Origin: Salinisphaera hydrothermalis C41B8
GTDB lineage: Bacteria; Pseudomonadota; Gammaproteobacteria; Nevskiales; Salinisphaeraceae
Direction: 5' to 3'
Length of the DNA stretch: 64,000 nt
Assembly (NCBI RefSeq): GCF_000732535.1
Contig: NZ_APNK01000008.1
Location: 62,001-126,000 of the forward strand
Shown here: positions 41,734 through 62,996 of the stretch, one piece after another
Numbering within the stretch: the stretch's first letter is position 1
How the letters are laid out: every line of letters starts with the position of its first letter
The notes under the pieces: generated by a model
The model's input: the letters and a program-made list of their open reading frames with translations, nothing else
Databases searched by the model: none
What the model was told of the DNA's origin: nothing
Made by a program: the position numbers and the translations under genes

Positions 41734-41747
41734 CTCGACTAAAGTAT
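41734..41747 (+). promoter_or_regulatory. Conserved promoter element CTCGACTAAAGTAT upstream of iolB
   Basis: The same 14 bases occur at 45833-45846 upstream of the first inositol dehydrogenase operon, and ten of them appear inverted at 49062-49071 upstream of iolC. In both direct copies an operator-like palindrome starts exactly 42 bases further on. It may contain the -10 region (TAAAGTAT) or an activator site. Confidence 0.55.
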
Positions 41748-41775
41748 GAAACAAATTGTTTGCCATCGTAAAAAA

Positions 41776-41791
41776 TAAAAAATATGTTCTA
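41776..41791. promoter_or_regulatory. IolR-like operator upstream of iolB (weak member)
   Basis: TAAAA-AATATG-TTCTA differs at one position from the T(A/G)GAA-N6-TTC(C/T)A palindrome found at three other iol promoters of this window. It lies 43 bases before iolB. Confidence 0.45.
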
Positions 41792-41833
41792 TATCCAGTA
41801 ACGACACATCATTCATTCAGACCCCGAGTCGCC

Positions 41834-42625
41834 ATGGATCTTCTCCTTAACCCGACCCGCGATGCCGCCGAAACGCTGGATACGGCCCGCGCTGCCGAGC
41901 CGCTGGAATACGTGCGTTTTCGTCAGCGCAACCTCGCGCAAGGCGAAACGTTCACCGATAACAGCGGCGATCTGGAGTTGTGCCTCGTGCTGCTCAGCGG
42001 CAAGGCCACCATTCGTTGCGGCGACGAGACGTTCGAGGCGATCGGCCAGCGCATGAGCGTGTTCGAGCAGACGCCGCCCTATGCGGTCTATCTGCCGAAC
42101 GATACCGACTACAGTGTGGAAGCGATCACGGACGTCGAGCTCGGCATCTGCGGGGCGCCGGGGCACGGCCATCACGCGCCGCGGCTGATCGAGCCCGGCG
42201 ACATCAAGCAGAGCACGCGTGGCGAAGGCGCCAACGTGCGCCACGTGCACGACATCCTGCCGGAGACCGAGCCCGCAGACAGCCTGCTGGTGGTCGAGGT
42301 GTATACGCCGGCCGGCAACTGGTCGAGCTATCCGCCGCACAAGCACGACGAAGACAACCTGCCGCAGGAATCGTTTCTCGAGGAAAGCTACTACCACCGC
42401 CTCAATCCGTCGCGTGGCTTCGGACTGCAGCGGATCTATACCGACGATCGTTCAATAGACGAGGCGATGGCATTCGGCGACGGTAGTTGTGTATTGGTGC
42501 CACGCGGGTACCACCCGGTCGGTGCGCCTTATGGCTGTGACCTTTATTACCTTAATGTCATGGCCGGGCCGAAGCGTGAATGGAAATTCACCACCGATCC
42601 GGACTTCGCGTGGCTGGTGAAATAA
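41834..42625 (+). CDS. iolB: 5-deoxy-glucuronate isomerase
   Basis: A 263-residue bicupin enzyme that converts 5-deoxy-D-glucuronate, the product of IolD, to 2-deoxy-5-keto-D-gluconate. Metal-binding His/Glu residues are seen in SYPPHKHDEDNLPQESFLEE (about 171-190) and in the C-terminal GYHPVGAPYGCDLYYLNVM. The ATG at 41834 follows the AT-rich promoter; an upstream in-frame ATG at 41756 lies within that promoter. It is the leftmost gene of the inositol island, separated from the rest by repeats. Confidence 0.95.
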   Translation: MDLLLNPTRDAAETLDTARAAEPLEYVRFRQRNLAQGETFTDNSGDLELCLVLLSGKATIRCGDETFEAIGQRMSVFEQTPPYAVYLPNDTDYSVEAITDVELGICGAPGHGHHAPRLIEPGDIKQSTRGEGANVRHVHDILPETEPADSLLVVEVYTPAGNWSSYPPHKHDEDNLPQESFLEESYYHRLNPSRGFGLQRIYTDDRSIDEAMAFGDGSCVLVPRGYHPVGAPYGCDLYYLNVMAGPKREWKFTTDPDFAWLVK

Positions 42626-42671
42626 CCGGTCGTACCGTGGCGGGGCGAACCCGCTGAACACAGGAGCGGAT

Positions 42672-42860
42672 ATGAGTGACATGAGTATCGATAACGTCTT
42701 CCCGCAAGACCGCGATGCCGAACTCGACCGTCAGTGGACGAGTGAGCACCCGTTCTGGGCGCGTATCGGCGCGTTCATGGAACGGGTCGGAACCTTCTGT
42801 GGAACGCACGCGGCCGGCTATATCGTGCCGACCACGGACGAGGAACAACGCATTCATTGA
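42672..42860 (+). CDS. Small protein encoded downstream of iolB
   Basis: A 62-residue acidic protein (MSDMSIDNVFPQDRDAEL...) with a good binding site (CAGGAGCGG) in front of the ATG and a terminator about 95 bases after it. It is 46 bases downstream of iolB in the same direction, so it is likely in the same transcript. No domain is recognised; Trp and aromatic residues in the middle suggest a small fold or membrane-proximal segment. It may be a lineage-specific accessory protein. Confidence 0.6.
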   Translation: MSDMSIDNVFPQDRDAELDRQWTSEHPFWARIGAFMERVGTFCGTHAAGYIVPTTDEEQRIH

Positions 42861-42956
42861 ATCGTGCCTTACGGCCGATAGGCCGTATTGTCGCCGCGAA
42901 CCAGCGCCTGGATGGACCCGAAACCGGTCCACGCGCGTTGCTTCGACGGTGTTCCA

Positions 42957-42984
42957 AGCCGGCTGGGCCCAGCCGGCTTTTTTT
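42957..42984 (+). terminator. Rho-independent terminator after iolB and the small protein
   Basis: The palindrome AAGCCGGCTGGGCCCAGCCGGCTT is followed by further T residues. Confidence 0.88.
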
Positions 42985-43189
42985 GTGCTTGGCGGATTGG
43001 TGGGCAAGAACCGCGCTTCGTATGCCCATGGTTCCGGGCTTTTGCGAGTGGTATTGATAGGGCGTGAGCGGCCTTTTACGAGTCAGCGTTCGTCCGGGGC
43101 GTTAGACGCTCACAGAATCTCCGCGACGTGATTTGTGCAGGCGTAGGTGGCCGGTTTGGGCTGCTACTGGTTTTGAACCGCGGGGCGAG

Positions 43190-43890
43190 TTGGACTCTGG
43201 TTTCGCACTGCAGTGCGAGTCCCTTCTTTTGCTTGCTCAAAAGAAGGAACCAAGAAAAGAGCACCCGCATCGGCGCCGGCTACGCCGTGCCGTACGAGGC
43301 GAGGAGCAGGGTTTTCCCGGCGTAGCCGGGATGCGACCGCCGGCGTTCGGCACGAGCCCCACGCCACGACTCGTCCGGTTCGACCCGCCGAAGGTCGCAT
43401 CCCACAGCTTCGCTGCGGGAAGGCCCTGCTCCGCTTCTCGGGGCGATACTGCGATGCTCGCGGCGACGGGATGCGGCAAAAACTCAGGCCGCTTTGGCGG
43501 CCTTCAAACAGCTTGCCGCCCCGGCGCCGTGCGCCGGACACCCGTCGCCGCTGCGCGTCTCCGTCGCCTCAGACGGGACGTAATACAAACCCATCTCCCA
43601 GGCATTGCGCGTACACCGACCTGTCGCGGGCCCGCGCTGTATTGGGTTCCCTTGCGGAGCGCCGAGCAGCACAGCCGAGACGGGATGAAGCAGCCGGCTG
43701 TTTGAGCGTCAGCGAGTTCCGGCTGCGCCCGGCTCGGCGAGCAGCGCAGGGGATCGATGCGCAGCATCGACGCGTAGATAGGGTGTCGTTTCCTTTGCTC
43801 CCTTTCGTTTGGACAAGCAAACGAAAGGGAGTCGCGCATCAGCGCGAAGCCCCAAGTAACGTCAAACTCGCGAGTTTTCCTGGCTCCAAT
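43190..43890. repeat. Hairpin-bearing non-coding repeat, copy 1
   Basis: The block begins near the palindrome CGCACTGCAGTGCG. It then has the hairpin CCTTCTTTTG-cttgct-CAAAAGAAGG (43222-43247). It ends with CTCCCTTTCGTTTG and its complement around a 6-base loop (43798-43831) and the phrase ccccaagtaacgtcaaactc. The intervening ~550 bases have open frames on all strands but no recognisable protein. Most of it recurs at 43925-44491. Confidence 0.7.
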
Positions 43891-43924
43891 AGTTGATTTT
43901 GGCGGCCAATACCTTGAGCCGCCA

Positions 43925-44491
43925 GGTCATTTGAACTTTGGTTTCGCACTGCAGTGCGAGTCCCTTCTTTTGCTTGCTCAAAAGAAGGAACCAAGAAAAG
44001 AGCACCCGCATCGGCGCCGGCTACGCCGGTGCACTGCGATGCTCGCGTCGACGGGATGCGGCCAGAACTCGCGTCGCTTTGGCGACGCTCAAACAGGCTG
44101 GCCGCCCCGGCGCAGTGCGCCGGACACCCGTCGCCGCTGCGCGTCTCCGTCGCCTCAGACGGGGCGTAATACAAACCCCTCTCCCAAGCATCACGAGGGT
44201 TCCGCAGTGTCGCGGGCGGTGTCTGTATTCGGGTTCCCTTGAGCGCAGCGCCGAGCAGTGGAGGCTGCAAGAGGACAAAGGCAGCCGTGTGTCTGAGTGC
44301 TGCGCAGCAGCGCGAGTTTCGCGGCTGTCCCTCTTGCGGCCGGAGCCGCGCAGGGCACCGATGCGCAGCATCGGCGCAAGGTAGGGTGTCTTTTCCTTTG
44401 CTTCCTTTCGTTTGGACAAGCAAACGAAAGGGAGTCGCGCATCAGCGCGAAACCCCAAGTAACGTCAAACTCGCGAGTTTTCCTGGCTCGA
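43925..44491. repeat. Hairpin-bearing non-coding repeat, copy 2
   Basis: A shortened second copy of the block at 43190-43890. The left hairpin region (from ctttggtttcgcactgcag) and right hairpin (44401-44434, one mismatch in the 14-bp stem) are kept, while the middle is about 130 bases shorter. Near-identity at the ends suggests recent duplication or conversion. Confidence 0.7.
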
Positions 44492-44514
44492 ACGCGCAAA
44501 CCTCGCGAACCGGG

Positions 44515-44607
44515 CTGTATTCGGGTCCCCTTGAGCGCAGCGCAGCGCCGAGCAGTGGAGGGCGCAAGAGGAAAGAGACAGCCGTGTGTCTGAGTGCTGC
44601 GCCGCGG
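44515..44607. repeat. Partial third copy of the hairpin-bearing repeat
   Basis: A ~93-base stretch (gtattcgggtccccttgagcg to gtgctgcgccg) repeats the sequence at 44226-44313 with few changes. It ends just beside the 3' end of the minus-strand isomerase gene. Confidence 0.6.
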
Positions 44608-44611
44608 CGAA

Positions 44612-45577
44612 TCAGTCGGGCAGCTGGTAGTCCGGTTGTTCCTGCGGCATGACGCGCCGCAGCAGGTCGACCGAGCGGCGTACGCCTTCGTTGCACGACA
44701 GGTTCTGGTCTTCGTGTTCGATCGACAGCACACCCTCCGAGTAGCCGCGGGCCTGGAGCTGCCAGCAGAACTCACGCCACCAGTCCTCGGGCTGGCCATA
44801 GCCCAACGTGACGTACGACCAGCTGCGGTCTAGCACCCGATCCATCGGCCGGGTGTCGAGCCGCGTCGCCTCGGCCAGGTTGTGTTGATCGATGTACGTG
44901 TCCTTGGCGTGCACGTGGTAGATGCAGTCCGCATAGCGCCGGATCATCTCGATCGGATCACCGCCCATCCAGATGAAATGGCTCGGGTCGAAGTTCAGGC
45001 CCACGGTGGGGCCGACGGCATCCCGAAGTCGCATGAAGCTGGGCATGTTGTGGACGAGTTGCGCGCCGTGCGCTTCGATGCACAGTTGGTTGACGCCTCG
45101 GCCTTCGGCGTAGTCGACCAGTTTGCGCCAGTAGGGAATAGCCACGTCCTCCCATTGATAGCGCAGGATGTCGTGGGTCTCCGGCGGCCACGCGGTGGTA
45201 ACCCAGTTCGGCATCGAATCGCCGGGCGCGCCGGCGGGCAGGCCGGACATGAGCACGATGCGGGGCACTTCGAAGATCTCGGCCAGCCGGATGGCGTTAT
45301 GCACGACCGTGGACTGACGCTCGCCATCGGTCGGATGCAGCTGATTGCCGTTGGCGGTGAATGCCGAGATTTCCAGGCCGCGATCGCGGATCTTGGCGGC
45401 CAGCTCACGCTGGCGCGCCGAGTCCTCGAGAAGCATCTTCACATCACCTATGTGGGCCGCGGCGCCCCAGTTGCCGACGCAGAACTCGATCGCGTCGATG
45501 CCGAGCTCGGCGCAGTAGTCGAGCATGGCGTCGGTATCCATATGGGCGACGCTGTCGGTCACCATCCCTATCTTCAT
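44612..45577 (-). CDS. Sugar phosphate isomerase/epimerase-like TIM-barrel protein
   Basis: A 321-residue AP-endonuclease-2-superfamily TIM barrel, related to IolE/IolH/IolI and xylose isomerase. Metal-ligand regions are visible: LCIEAHGAQ (Glu), LNFDPSHFIW (Asp, His), YHVHAKDTY (His) and LSIEHEDQN (Glu). It probably isomerises or epimerises an oxidised sugar or inosose. The ATG at 45577 has a strong GGAG site on the complementary strand (agaggagatg). It is divergent from the Gfo/Idh/MocA operon, sharing a 368-base promoter region with an operator-like site on each side. Confidence 0.85.
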   Translation of the reverse strand: MKIGMVTDSVAHMDTDAMLDYCAELGIDAIEFCVGNWGAAAHIGDVKMLLEDSARQRELAAKIRDRGLEISAFTANGNQLHPTDGERQSTVVHNAIRLAEIFEVPRIVLMSGLPAGAPGDSMPNWVTTAWPPETHDILRYQWEDVAIPYWRKLVDYAEGRGVNQLCIEAHGAQLVHNMPSFMRLRDAVGPTVGLNFDPSHFIWMGGDPIEMIRRYADCIYHVHAKDTYIDQHNLAEATRLDTRPMDRVLDRSWSYVTLGYGQPEDWWREFCWQLQARGYSEGVLSIEHEDQNLSCNEGVRRSVDLLRRVMPQEQPDYQLPD

Positions 45578-45628
45578 CACGCATCTCCTCTGTGCTTTTG
45601 AATAACGGCGTGGTTGTTGCGTCGAAAT

Positions 45629-45644
45629 TAGAATGAAAATTCCA
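45629..45644. promoter_or_regulatory. IolR-like operator upstream of the TIM-barrel isomerase
   Basis: TAGAA-TGAAAA-TTCCA, an imperfect palindrome fitting T(A/G)GAA-N6-TTC(C/T)A. It is 52 bases upstream of the minus-strand start. Confidence 0.55.
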
Positions 45645-45832
45645 GCATCGCAAGAGCGCAACCCACGGCAATATCCGGCGTCACGACGCGCCAGCGCCGC
45701 GCAAGGCCCGCTAAAAACGCGGGCAGGATGGATTCGCCCGCGCTAATCGATGTAGTGCCAAGGCCATGATGACCGCGAGTTGCCCGCGTGCGCGCCGCGA
45801 AACATGGGCGGGCGCATCGGTCGGGCCGGTGG

Positions 45833-45846
45833 CTCGACTAAAGTAT
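45833..45846 (+). promoter_or_regulatory. Conserved promoter element CTCGACTAAAGTAT upstream of the Gfo/Idh/MocA operon
   Basis: Identical to 41734-41747. The operator-like site starts 42 bases downstream, the same distance as at iolB. Confidence 0.55.
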
Positions 45847-45874
45847 AAAATGATAGGTTTGTAAAAAATAAAAA

Positions 45875-45890
45875 TAGAAAATAAATTCTA
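45875..45890. promoter_or_regulatory. IolR-like operator upstream of the Gfo/Idh/MocA operon
   Basis: TAGAA-AATAAA-TTCTA, a perfect 5-bp inverted repeat around six A/T bases, 56 bases before the start at 45946. Fourteen of its bases recur at 62675-62688. Confidence 0.6.
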
Positions 45891-45945: not shown

Positions 45946-46950
45946 ATGAGTCGATCCTCGATCAACTGGGGGGTATTGGGGGCGGCCGAGATCGCACGCG
46001 AACACACGATCCCGGCCATCCTGGCCGCCGACAACAGCCAGCCCTATGCGCTGGCCAGCCGCCGCGGCGTGCCGTCCGAACTGGTCGAGCGTTTCGGTTT
46101 TGCCACCGGCTACGACGATTACGAGGCGCTGCTGGCCGATCCAGCGGTCGATGCCGTGTATCTGCCGCTGCCCAACGATCGCCATGCCGAGTGGACGATC
46201 AAGGCGGCGCGTGCCGGCAAGCACGTGCTTTGCGAAAAACCGGCGGCGTTGACGGCCGGCCAGACCCGCGAGGCAATCGCCGCCTGTGAATCGGCCGGCG
46301 TGCTGTTTATGGAAGCCATGATGTATCAATTCCATGCCCAACACGCCCGCGTGCGCGAACTGATTGCCGCCGGCGCGATCGGCGAGGTGCGCGGCGTCCA
46401 CGTGAATCTGACCTTCAACCTGGAAAAGAGCCTGGCGGATTTCCGCCACGGCGGCCTCGAAACCGGCGGCGGCAGCCTTTACGACCTGGGCTGCTACTGC
46501 ATCCACGTGATCCGCAGCCTGCTGGGCGAGCCCGACCGGGTCGCCACGGTCGCGCGCTTCGCCGGCCCGCAGGCGGCGGAGATGTCGGCCGCCGTCGTGC
46601 TCGGCTACGACAACGGCGCCAAGGCCGGCTTCGATTGCGGCATGGATGCCACGCCCCGGCATGCCTACGAGGTCTACGGCACCGCAGGCACGCTCCGAGT
46701 GCCCAAGGCCTTCGTGCCGCAGCCGGACGGCGATGGTCCCATCGACATCGTGGACGCCGACGGCAACACGACCGTTGAGCGCGTTACGTCCCATCAATAC
46801 CCGAACGGGGTCGCGCATTTCGCCGACTGCGTTCTAACCGGGCGCACGCCCGATTACTCGCCGCACGACGTACTCGCGAACATGCGGGTACTGGATGCCT
46901 GTATCGAATCGTTGACCACGTCGCGCATCGTTTCATTGGAGAAACCCTAA
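45946..46950 (+). CDS. Gfo/Idh/MocA-family oxidoreductase (paralogue 1)
   Basis: A 334-residue NAD(P)-dependent dehydrogenase. An N-terminal Rossmann fold (INWGVLGAAEIAREH) is followed by the substrate-orienting EKP motif (LCEKPAAL, about residue 96). The catalytic region reads LYDLGCYCIHV, an Asp-x3-Tyr arrangement like glucose-fructose oxidoreductase and dihydrodiol dehydrogenase, not the Asp-x3-His of typical inositol dehydrogenases. It probably oxidises a sugar or aldose rather than myo-inositol. It starts the operon and its stop overlaps the next start (TAATG). Confidence 0.85.
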   Translation: MSRSSINWGVLGAAEIAREHTIPAILAADNSQPYALASRRGVPSELVERFGFATGYDDYEALLADPAVDAVYLPLPNDRHAEWTIKAARAGKHVLCEKPAALTAGQTREAIAACESAGVLFMEAMMYQFHAQHARVRELIAAGAIGEVRGVHVNLTFNLEKSLADFRHGGLETGGGSLYDLGCYCIHVIRSLLGEPDRVATVARFAGPQAAEMSAAVVLGYDNGAKAGFDCGMDATPRHAYEVYGTAGTLRVPKAFVPQPDGDGPIDIVDADGNTTVERVTSHQYPNGVAHFADCVLTGRTPDYSPHDVLANMRVLDACIESLTTSRIVSLEKP

Positions 46951-49014: not shown

Positions 49015-49061
49015 CGCCGCGGCGTTCTGCGGCGGGCGAGCGGTGGTCGATAGCCGACGCA

Positions 49062-49071
49062 ACTTTAGTCG
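49062..49071 (-). promoter_or_regulatory. Inverted CGACTAAAGT element upstream of iolC
   Basis: ACTTTAGTCG on the plus strand is the reverse complement of the core of the 14-bp element at iolB and the Gfo/Idh/MocA operon. An AT-rich stretch with TTCC-N6-GGAA (49092-49105) follows. The site may act in the opposite orientation here or be a coincidence. Confidence 0.35.
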
Positions 49072-49174
49072 CAGAACGCTTGTAACAGAAATTCCTTTGT
49101 TGGAAAATTTAGAATAAATAAGTTATCGGCGGACTGAATCGAACCGCTGTTCCAAGACCGAAGCGGAGAAGCCC

Positions 49175-56476: not shown

Positions 56477-56490
56477 TTCTTTCAAGGCAG

Positions 56491-56621
56491 TTATCCGCAG
56501 ATTTCTCAGATTGCACAGATCAGGAATGTCGGCTTATTGGGTTCGATGACCAGACGACCGTTATGAACTAAAAGCTTTCTGTCTTAAAAAAATCTGCGTC
56601 ATCTGCGAAATCTGCGGATAA
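56491..56621. repeat. ATCTGCG-type inverted-repeat element, copy 3
   Basis: The left arm at 56491-56520 starts TTATCCGCAGATTTC and the right arm at 56591-56621 ends AAATCTGCGGATAA. Each arm has three CGCAGAT-like words spaced about 9-10 bases apart. The two arms can pair over nearly 30 bp. It is 131 bp and lies between the second iolE and a dehydrogenase gene. Confidence 0.85.
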
Positions 56622-56644
56622 AAAATTCCGAGGAGACCATCGAA

Positions 56645-57808
56645 ATGGCAGAACAACTCAACATCGGCATCATCGGCACCGGCTTCATGGGCCGTGCTCA
56701 CGCTGAAGCCTTCTGGCGATGTGCGGCGCTGTATACCGATCTGGCGCTGCGGCCGCATCTGTATGCGGTAGCCGATGTCAGCCGCGCGCTGGCCGAGGCG
56801 GCGAAAACGCGCTTCAACTTCGACAAGGCCTATGACGATTGGCGGGCGATGATCGCGGATCCGAACGTGCATGTCGTCGATATCACTTCGCCAAACCAGT
56901 TCCATCACGAAATGGCGCTGGCAGCGATCGCGGCCGGCAAGCACGTCTACTGCGAAAAACCGCTGGCAATGTCGACCGCCGAGGCCAACGAGATGCGCGA
57001 TGCGGCGGAGAAAGCCGGCGTGAAGACCATGGTCTCGTTCAACAACATCAAGACGCCGGCGGCCATGCTCGCCAAGCAGATCATCGATCGCGGCGAGATC
57101 GGTACGCCCACGCGTTTTCGCGGCACCTTCGACCAGGGTTTCTTCAACGACCCGGAACTGCCGTGGTCCTGGCGCTGCTCGCGGGCGGCCGCCGGCACCG
57201 GCTCGCTCGGCGATCTCGGCGCGCACGTGATCGGCGTGGCCCAGTATCTGATGGGTGATTTCGACCGGGTCTGCGGCCAGTCGCAGGTCGTGTTCGACAA
57301 GCGCCCGGTGGCCGATCCGGGCGCCGGTTATTCATCGAAGGCCGGGGCCGACGCCGAATGGCGTGAAGTCGAGAACGACGACCAGACCCAGTGCCTGGTG
57401 AAGTTCGCGTCCGGCGCCGCCGGCGTGGTCGAATCCTCGCGCATCGCGGCCGGCAAGATCATGGGCGTGGAATGGGAGATTTCCGGCACCGAAGGCACCA
57501 TCATCATGAACGGCGAGCGGTTCAACGAACTGCAGGTGTTCCGGATGCGCGAAGAGAAACGCGACCGTGGCTTCAAGACCCTGCTCGCCGGCTCCCAGGT
57601 GCCGCAGTACGCCGGCTTCTTCCCCTTCGATTTCGGCGGCGGCAGCCTTGGCTTCTACGACGCCAAGGTGATCGACGTCTGCGATCTCGTGACCGGCATC
57701 GCCAGCCCGGACGATTGCTATCCGAACTTCAGCTTCGGTGCCCGTAACCAGCGGATTCTCGAAGCGATCGACGAGTCCTGCCAGTCGGAATCCTGGGTCG
57801 ACGTTTGA
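56645..57808 (+). CDS. Gfo/Idh/MocA-family oxidoreductase (paralogue 4)
   Basis: A 387-residue member with LNIGIIGTGFMGRAHAEAFWR at the N-terminus, EKP motif YCEKPLAMS and the catalytic LGDLGAHVIGV (Asp-x3-His). It also has a C-terminal insertion typical of the longer inositol/sugar dehydrogenases. It is similar in plan to the gene at 60085. It probably oxidises a cyclitol or sugar; the substrate is unknown. It is bracketed on both sides by ATCTGCG-type repeats, so it may have been brought in or moved as a unit. Confidence 0.87.
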   Translation: MAEQLNIGIIGTGFMGRAHAEAFWRCAALYTDLALRPHLYAVADVSRALAEAAKTRFNFDKAYDDWRAMIADPNVHVVDITSPNQFHHEMALAAIAAGKHVYCEKPLAMSTAEANEMRDAAEKAGVKTMVSFNNIKTPAAMLAKQIIDRGEIGTPTRFRGTFDQGFFNDPELPWSWRCSRAAAGTGSLGDLGAHVIGVAQYLMGDFDRVCGQSQVVFDKRPVADPGAGYSSKAGADAEWREVENDDQTQCLVKFASGAAGVVESSRIAAGKIMGVEWEISGTEGTIIMNGERFNELQVFRMREEKRDRGFKTLLAGSQVPQYAGFFPFDFGGGSLGFYDAKVIDVCDLVTGIASPDDCYPNFSFGARNQRILEAIDESCQSESWVDV

Positions 57809-57817
57809 AAAGCATGG

Positions 57818-57953
57818 ATCCGCAGATTACGCAGATTGCACAGATGAAGAAGAGAACGGCGGATAGCTAGTTGCCGTACGGAACACCGAAACGGTTGAAA
57901 ACCAACGATCATTTGTCTTTGAAATCTGTGTCATCTGCGCAATCTGCGGATAA
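57818..57953. repeat. ATCTGCG-type inverted-repeat element, copy 4
   Basis: The left arm at 57818-57845 (ATCCGCAGATTACGCAGATT start) and the right arm at 57922-57953 (ends CAATCTGCGGATAA) form a near-complete inverted repeat. The interior shares little sequence with copy 3, so the arms are what is conserved. Confidence 0.85.
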
Positions 57954-57986
57954 CTAAAAGAACGAAGCCGCGAACGAGGAGCAGCA

Positions 57987-59202: not shown

Positions 59203-60062
59203 GGGCGTGTTGAGGTTTCATCACATGGGCAGCCAGAGCAGCGCACATGCCATGGCGACGACTGCTTCGTAGTGCGCCTTTAATTTATCGAAGCGACAAG
59301 CGATCGCACGGTACTGTTTGAGCCGTGCAAACGCATTCTCGCCGAGATGTCGATAACGGTACAAACCGCTATCGAAGCCTGGATTGGCTCGCTTGGAATG
59401 ACGCCGGCGCGGGATGACCGGCCGACTGGATCGAGTCTGGATCGCTGCTCGGACCTGACGACTGTCATAGCCTTTATCAGCGATCATGATGTCAACGCGA
59501 GGTATCGCGTCGACCAGGCGCGGCCCGATCGAGCCATCGTTGATCTGACCGCCCGTGATCTCGAAGGTGATCGGAAAGCCGTAGGCATCCACGGCCAAGT
59601 GAATCTTGGTCGTGCGCCCGGCGCGACTGGGGCCGATCGCCTGCGGCTGACCGCCGCTAGCTCCGGCACTGTGCTGGTGGGCTTTGGCATAGCTGCCATC
59701 CATAAACGCCCATTCGAGATCGGGATCGACGATGCACGCATGGAAAATACGCCACCACTTGCCACTGGCTGCCCAGGCTCGAAAACGCTGATAAATCGTA
59801 GTCCACGGCCCGAAGGCCTGCGGCAGATCGCGCCATGGGCATCCGACCCGCATACGGTAGAGCATGCCCTCGACTGTTTGCCGCAATCGTGGCTTGTCGT
59901 AAATCGACTCAGCCAGCAGTATCTGTCTGAGCTTCGCCCAGAGCTTTTCTGAGAGCATCTGGCGGGCCATGGTGAACTCGTTTTGAAGCGGGGGTGGAAT
60001 ACCGCAACAATGCGAGTTCGCCATTTCATTTCAATCGCTTATGGCGAAACCTCAACACGCCC
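59203..60062 (-). mobile_element. IS5-family (IS427-group-like) insertion sequence
   Basis: An 860-bp element with terminal inverted repeats GGGCGTGTTGAGGTTTC, flanked by TA direct repeats at 59201-59202 and 60063-60064, as expected for this group. It encodes one transposase on the minus strand, apparently intact. It splits the run of Gfo/Idh/MocA genes and ends 22 bases before the start of the next gene. Confidence 0.92.
59221..59970 (-). CDS. IS5-family DDE transposase
   Basis: About 249 residues from MARQMLSEKLWAKL (an upstream in-frame ATG at 60024 would add 18). The DUF4096 N-terminal helix-turn region is seen in GMLYRMRVGCPWRDLP. DDE residues lie in AFMDGSYAKAH, IMIADKGYDS and YRHLGENAFARLKQ. 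Unlike many IS427-group members, which split the gene into two overlapping frames, this one is a single open frame. It looks functional. Confidence 0.9.
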   Translation of the reverse strand: MARQMLSEKLWAKLRQILLAESIYDKPRLRQTVEGMLYRMRVGCPWRDLPQAFGPWTTIYQRFRAWAASGKWWRIFHACIVDPDLEWAFMDGSYAKAHQHSAGASGGQPQAIGPSRAGRTTKIHLAVDAYGFPITFEITGGQINDGSIGPRLVDAIPRVDIMIADKGYDSRQVRAAIQTRSSRPVIPRRRHSKRANPGFDSGLYRYRHLGENAFARLKQYRAIACRFDKLKAHYEAVVAMACALLWLPM

Positions 60063-62597: not shown

Positions 62598-62996
62598 ATC
62601 CGTTGACCCTGGGTGCGGAGTGCGCGGGCGCGTGGGCGCCTGTCGTTCAATGTCGGACCATGGAAGCAATGGTGGAAAATAAATTCTATAATACTAAATG
62701 ATGAAATATATAGTTTGACGGTGGCTGTGCAAGCCACGTAGTTTCCGGCTCACATGGAACAGCGCCTGACATTGCGACTGCCCTGTCGACCGTCAGCCGT
62801 TCAGGAAGACGGACTACCGCGCGTATCGCGAAGCGATTCGTGAGCATGCGGCTGCGCTTCGACCCGGATGCGGGTAGGGCGCAATGAGACATCACCGGTT
62901 TAGCCGTCCAGTGCGACGCAAGCACCATAGGGCGTGGCGGCAAGCGGCTTGATCGCGGATCGAGCGGCATCCCCCGCCGCTGAGGAGGAGATTCAA
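62598..62996. other. Divergent promoter region between paralogue 7 and the transporter
   Basis: 399 bases without a gene. It contains the operator-like palindrome and an AT-rich stretch (62673-62715) near the leftward gene. The remaining ~280 bases before the transporter show no clear signal apart from its ribosome binding site. Confidence 0.5.
62673..62688. promoter_or_regulatory. IolR-like operator upstream of paralogue 7 and the transporter
   Basis: TGGAA-AATAAA-TTCTA, fitting the same palindrome as at 45629 and 45875. It sits in an AT-rich stretch between two divergent genes and could control both. Confidence 0.6.

Follow-up and report, generated by a model that had tools for sequence, protein, structure and literature searches.

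In Pseudomonas, the response regulator CrbR (ErdR) has its site, termed ACTU, at acetate genes. At acs this imperfect inverted repeat occupies positions -52 to -36, directly before an RpoD promoter, and four point mutations in it abolish the induction of the gene (excerpts of PMC5715377). In P. putida the MxtR/ErdR system is important for the use of pyruvate as well (PMC9927547), and a role beyond acetate therefore has precedent. A second described system is the GGAA-N6-TTCC inositol operator of Caulobacter and its relatives; mutation of one such motif led to higher expression of iolC (excerpts of PMC2597717), which is consistent with repression. Here we compare both systems with a 14-bp element, CTCGACTAAAGTAT, located before inositol genes in a 64,000-nucleotide stretch of Salinisphaera hydrothermalis C41B8 (contig NZ_APNK01000008.1, positions 62,001 to 126,000), which is referred to as the window.

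The repeated element is real and is kept in related bacteria before the promoters of inositol genes. The reading that best accounts for it is CrbR-type activation combined with IolR repression of inositol catabolism, to which we assign, from sequence comparison, a probability of about 0.58. Conservation, promoter geometry, motif likeness and the presence of CrbS/CrbR-like and IolR-like genes were computed.

The repeated element and the layout of its promoters

The features of the three promoters in the window are as follows, where the operator consensus is TRGAA-N6-TTCYA.

41734..41747, + strand: 14-bp element before iolB, exact match; 12-bp core CGACTAAAGTAT at 41736-41747; ACTU score 11.95 bits
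41760..41765, + strand: predicted -35 of iolB, TTGCCA; TTG in the same place in 12/12 promoters
41776..41791, + strand: predicted IolR operator of iolB, TAAAAAATATGTTCTA; one mismatch to the consensus
41783..41788, + strand: predicted -10 of iolB, TATGTT, within the operator; TANNTT in 12/12 promoters
41834..42622, + strand: iolB; TIGR04378, above cut-off
45833..45846, + strand: 14-bp element before the gfo1/iolG operon, exact match; best ACTU site of the window, 15.07 bits
45859..45864, + strand: predicted -35 of gfo1, TTGTAA, from the promoter alignment
45875..45890, + strand: predicted IolR operator of gfo1, TAGAAAATAAATTCTA; no mismatch to the consensus
45882..45887, + strand: predicted -10 of gfo1, TAAATT, within the operator, from the promoter alignment
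45946..46947, + strand: gfo1, Gfo/Idh/MocA oxidoreductase, first gene of an operon with two IolG-like genes
49060..49071, - strand: element before iolC, CGACTAAAGTTG on the minus strand; ACTU score 12.03 bits
49080..49085, + strand: possible -35 of iolC, TTGTAA; TTG conserved, overlapping the possible second operator
49081..49096: possible second operator at iolC, operator-like with two mismatches
49103..49108, + strand: possible -10 of iolC, GAAAAT; NANNAT by eye in seven promoters
49110..49125, + strand: predicted IolR operator of iolC, TAGAATAAATAAGTTA; right half degenerate, fixed distance to the element in 6/6

A scan of the window located exact matches to CTCGACTAAAGTAT at 41734-41747 and 45833-45846, and these were the only two exact copies across the 4.28-Mb genome. 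Allowing up to two mismatches gave eight matches genome-wide (the other six all with two mismatches) against nine for the reversed control, and therefore only the exact pair stands out. The operators start at 41776 and 45875, which places both 42 bp from the element, start to start, and upstream of iolC the minus strand carries a 10-bp inverted copy, CGACTAAAGT, at 49062-49071. These observations confirm what the initial annotation had reported of the identical element, its fixed distance and the inverted copy, and element and operator also recur together in relatives; its proposals that the element serves as the -10 region, that the operator acts as a roadblock and that the two promoters are paralogous copies were not supported, as described below.

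We searched 41 genomes for iolB and found it in eight, seven of which carry the element before the gene with at most three mismatches; at the same threshold it was not found before iolB in G022, which belongs to another family. Across the 14 genomes of the genus, CGACTAAAGTATGAA with at most one mismatch gave nine matches in five genomes, compared with two for the reversed control, and all nine sit before iolB or the gfo/iolG operon. At iolC the element takes the form of the dyad CGACTTTAGTCG, which is exact in four genomes, has one mismatch in G000 and G009, and was not found at iolC in G014. The distance from the iolC element to the operator is identical in all six promoters with the element. 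To cover a wider range, 80 iolB loci were fetched, and the 300 bp upstream were scored in the 79 with enough upstream sequence. Four loci reach 10 bits and two of these are Salinisphaera (L019, L020), where the top match is not the element itself; a third Salinisphaera locus (L018) scores 9.0 and four Halomonas-group loci score 3.5 to 8.8. Given that only four of the 79 loci reach 10 bits, two of them from Salinisphaera, no spread of the element beyond the family was seen in this set.

An alignment anchored on the operator comprised 12 promoters (seven iolB and five gfo/iolG). In every one of them TTG occurs at -16 from the operator start and TANNTT at +7, giving a 17-bp spacer; the only further TTG in the aligned stretch belongs to the iolB promoter of the window itself. 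Between the end of the element and the predicted -35 lie 12 bp. The TTG-N17-TANNTT pair in 12/12 promoters therefore places the element upstream of a sigma70-like -35 rather than at the -10. As the predicted -10 lies inside the operator, its conservation alone could come from the repressor; the TTG is outside the operator. In this alignment the operators of iolB and gfo1 overlap the predicted -10. The iolC operator probably lies across the start site, and a role of the operator as a downstream roadblock is not supported. The 42-bp spacing, on the same basis, reflects a conserved promoter layout and not a -10 region followed by a roadblock. At iolC, TTG and NANNAT are kept in seven promoters (by eye), and the -35 is less certain because the TTG overlaps a second operator-like sequence in four of the seven. 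For flagellar and other kinds of promoter, inspection was by eye only. A thirteenth promoter (iolG of G009), outside the 12, has an operator and an ACTU-like site of 12.8 bits situated 39 bp before it, with no TTG at -16.

From the element core to the operator, the iolB and gfo1 promoters measure 40 bp and the iolC promoter 50 bp, a difference of about one helical turn, while the distances from the core to the -35 (24 and 20) differ by other than one turn. With two promoter classes available, helical phasing of the core with the operator is only a hint.

The flanks of the iolB and gfo1 promoters had been described as alignable, which suggested paralogous copies. When the two promoters were compared in four genomes, the element agreed at 11-12 of 12 positions, the operator at 12-13 of 16, and the -35 agreed as well. 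The flanks (60 bp upstream, 34 bp downstream) stayed near the shuffle mean in all four; the highest agreement was 14/34 against 8.7 expected from shuffles (2.1 standard deviations, G007 downstream). Identity is thus limited to the functional blocks and a paralogous origin is not supported, as a common function or an old, saturated duplication fits equally well.

Likeness to the ACTU site and the candidate regulator

A literature search on the core GACTAAAGTC returned two relevant matches, the CrbR ACTU motif of P. fluorescens and a DosR consensus oligonucleotide. The element shares with ACTU the core of its imperfect dyad (a printed example is TACGACTAAAGTCTAAA) and the presence of a CrbS/CrbR-like pair in the genome. 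Like ACTU it is placed directly upstream of a promoter of RpoD type, here a predicted one, but 6-10 bp farther out than at acs of the genus. It differs further in that it precedes inositol instead of acetate genes, has the right half AGTAT at iolB and gfo1, and is combined with an IolR operator (compared with excerpts of PMC5715377). The DosR/DevR box of Mycobacterium has the core in its consensus oligonucleotide and belongs to a regulator of the same family; its flanks (GGGACT/AGTCCC) and regulon are unlike those found here (excerpts of PMC5999986).

We built an ACTU matrix from the 13 ACTU 17-mers printed in the excerpts of PMC5715377, several of which are only predictions there. With this matrix the gfo1, iolC and iolB sites of the window rank 1, 5 and 6 among distinct sites. 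Of 19 iol promoters, 17 reached at least 9.5 bits where shuffles predict 1.79, and 16 did so (1.77 expected) when the most similar row was removed. A matrix of only three rows (acs, actP, PFLU5625) ranks gfo1 first and iolB sixth by position. The 13-row matrix also gave its top match upstream of acs in all 12 acs loci scanned, at a distance from TATGCT or TATCCT that is constant by eye. The match counted for iolB of G009 (16.2) is a separate, divergent site, and the element of that promoter itself scores 11.4. The divergent site was observed at L107 (G009:C108, minus strand, 13492-13432), where an ACTU-type site of 16.2 bits and two IolR-type operators precede a sugar-transporter-like open reading frame.

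Four GerE proteins are encoded in the genome. One is a CrbR-like REC-GerE protein whose gene adjoins that of a CrbS-like hybrid kinase, 1158 residues long, in which PAS_7, HisKA, HATPase and REC domains were recognised. The N-terminus of this kinase gave a match (E 1.5e-62) to 10ed_A, the structurally solved membrane portion of a histidine kinase, which we take to be possibly CbrA, although the table entry reads 'histidine kinase'. The layout corresponds to CrbS as described in excerpts of PMC5715377; the CrbS/CrbR-like pair was assigned by domains and neighbourhood, from published descriptions rather than from the Pseudomonas CrbR sequence. The CrbR-like protein is the only one of the four GerE proteins with a lysine at the position of DosR K182, a base-contacting residue and, by alignment, the only one of three core DNA-contact residues that it shares with DosR (excerpts of PMC5999986). 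The CrbR-like gene is present in 13 of the 14 genus genomes and in G014.

Predicted IolR operators and neighbouring features

The GAA-N6-TTC dyad occurs before inositol genes at 41776, 45875, 45629 and 62673, each with zero or one mismatch. The last two are as follows.

45629..45644, - strand: IolR-type operator before the IolE-like gene at 44615-45580(-); no good element alongside
62673..62688, - strand: operator of IolR type ahead of a Gfo/Idh gene whose end is at 62669(-); element not found with up to one mismatch

The candidate for IolR is an RpiR-type gene (HTH_6 and SIS domains) at G000:C8:132436-133386, 6.4 kb past the end of the window, which adjoins a LacI-type gene and a sugar ABC transporter. 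As in Caulobacter and its relatives, a GAA-N6-TTC dyad is found at inositol genes, an RpiR-type regulator lies by the cluster and two motif copies are present at iolC; the differences are the TRGAA/TTCYA form and the upstream element, which is absent from the account in the excerpts of PMC2597717. Autoregulation of iolR was considered and rejected: GCTAAAGTCGGCG, upstream of iolR in G000, has three mismatches to the dyad, and nothing like it was found upstream of iolR in G007, G001 or G009. The LacI-type gene was also rejected as the source of the element's binder, with matches in 3 of 21 genomes (G000, G007 and, in part, G002) and none at E 1e-30 in G001 or G009, both of which have the element; G013 and G014 were outside this search. 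At G002:C30:10953-12126 the matches to iolR and the LacI-type gene are short and split, as if broken or misassembled.

The palindrome alone was rejected as a genome-wide marker. With at most one mismatch, CGACTAAAGTCG gave 15 matches in the source genome against 29 for the reversed control, and the count of exact CGACTWWAGTCG in the genus, given below, was likewise below its control. The perfect dyad CGACTAAAGTCG was observed at L147:5774-5785 (G000:C32:19773) and L209:1501-1512 (G007), in both cases flanked by genes for a sugar-binding protein and an FGGY pentulose kinase. Its presence beside the kinase gene in two genomes hints at a wider sugar regulon.

The inositol cluster of the window comprises iolB, an IolE-like isomerase, Gfo/Idh and IolG-type dehydrogenases, iolC, iolD, iolE, further Gfo/Idh genes and a methylmalonate-semialdehyde dehydrogenase gene. 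Paired direct repeats fill 43173-44609 (~1.4 kb, from the end of iolB to the IolE-like gene), for example 114 nt at 43776 and 44379 that are 96% identical. Short inverted and direct repeats of the ATCCGCAGATTNCNCAGATTGCACAGAT type (56484-56645 and 57809-57960) flank a levoglucosan-dehydrogenase-like gene. The segment 59200-60070 holds an IS4/5-type transposase gene (59224-60024, minus strand) between Gfo/Idh genes, with inverted ends GGGCGTGTTGAGGTTTC on its flanks, read by eye.

Weighing the explanations and their meaning

We infer the start sites, the identity of the binder, activation and the combined logic of the following model. The element would bind a dimeric response regulator of the NarL/LuxR family, with CrbR (ErdR) as the most probable one, and would lie shortly before the -35 of sigma70-type inositol promoters as an ACTU-type imperfect dyad (CGACT-NN-AGT..). 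If the start lies ~7 bp after the -10, by the general rule for start-site distance, the element would be centred at ~-53 at iolB and gfo1 and ~-49 at iolC. Phosphorylated CrbR would bind the element and recruit RNA polymerase, while the RpiR-type IolR would bind TRGAA-N6-TTCYA over the -10 (iolB, gfo1) or the start site (iolC) and keep the polymerase out for as long as no product of inositol breakdown removes the repressor. Two inputs, the inositol signal and the carbon signal of the two-component system, would then be required together for full expression.

Several results weigh against this model. A matrix of eight distinct acs sites of the genus, a check of our own on few, similar sequences that goes beyond the published ACTU definition, recognised 4 of 19 iol promoters (1.33 expected), left the iolB and gfo1 sites of the window unranked and ranked iolC 55. 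The three-row matrix ranks iolC only 68 by position, and the two promoters missed by the 13-row matrix are gfo1 and iolC of G014. Relative to the -10, the core lies 10 bp (iolB and gfo1) or 6 bp (iolC) farther away than at acs. Exact CGACTWWAGTCG is not enriched in the genus, where 7 of 14 genomes hold 14 sites in all and the control gives 23; four of the 14 sites are at iolC and one other place is common to G000 and G007. The Pfam SSF model gave no match on the CrbS-like kinase, and the CrbR-like gene was not found in G009 (87% complete), which carries the element. Given the weak acs matrix of the genus, the shifted spacing and the unenriched palindrome, the sequence comparisons give fairly good support to the element as an activator-type site of the NarL/LuxR kind and moderate support to CrbR as its binder.

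The element could instead be the site of another activator, perhaps a different GerE-family regulator or an inositol-specific protein, since the acs matrix of the genus recognises the iol sites poorly, the spacing is unlike that of acs, matches to the 15-mer form are confined to iol promoters and the genome encodes three further GerE proteins. We consider this unlikely, though it is the alternative to be taken most seriously: the element resembles the published ACTU set, the remaining three GerE proteins lack the DosR-type lysine, and the LacI-type neighbour of iolR is without a match at E 1e-30 in G001 and G009, as noted above. It is distinctly improbable that the element is a second IolR site acting with the operator through a 42-bp loop of about four turns. 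The fixed phase from core to operator (40 bp at iolB and gfo1, 50 bp at iolC) would fit such a loop, as would the joint presence of element and IolR candidate in G000, G001, G007, G009 and G002 (where the gene is fragmented); however, CGACT-NN-AGTCG does not resemble TRGAA-N6-TTCYA, and the operators at 45629 and 62673 lack the element.

An UP element, to which the polymerase alpha subunit binds without any regulator, would be partly A-rich and directly upstream of the -35, as this element is, but the conserved part at iolC is the dyad CGACT..AGTCG, which is too specific for an UP element, and we hold this explanation to be very improbable. Least credible of all is that the element holds the -10, with the operator as a downstream roadblock. 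Although TATAAA/TATGAA-like letters overlap the end of the element, no TTG was found at -35 distance upstream of them in a scan that reached ~10 bp upstream, and the TTG-N17-TANNTT pair is kept downstream in every aligned promoter.

Combined CrbR activation and IolR repression thus remains the preferred reading. A bolder form of it can be put forward only tentatively and is itself unlikely: CrbS/CrbR, the acetate system, would have been recruited to the catabolism of inositol, and perhaps of other polyols, as a needed activator, its site helically phased with the IolR operator (40/50 bp) so that activator and repressor influence each other along one face of the DNA.

The kind of site is ordinary and its place new: the activator-like site conserved at inositol promoters is probably a target not previously assigned to this two-component system, which is itself known. 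A literature library that lacks most subscription papers gave no earlier account of a link between CrbR and inositol genes. If the preferred reading is true, the corrected promoter map would allow start-site and mutation tests to target exact bases, a two-component system known for acetate and pyruvate use would also license a sugar-alcohol pathway, and this marine genus would possess a simple two-input promoter that combines carbon state with inositol.

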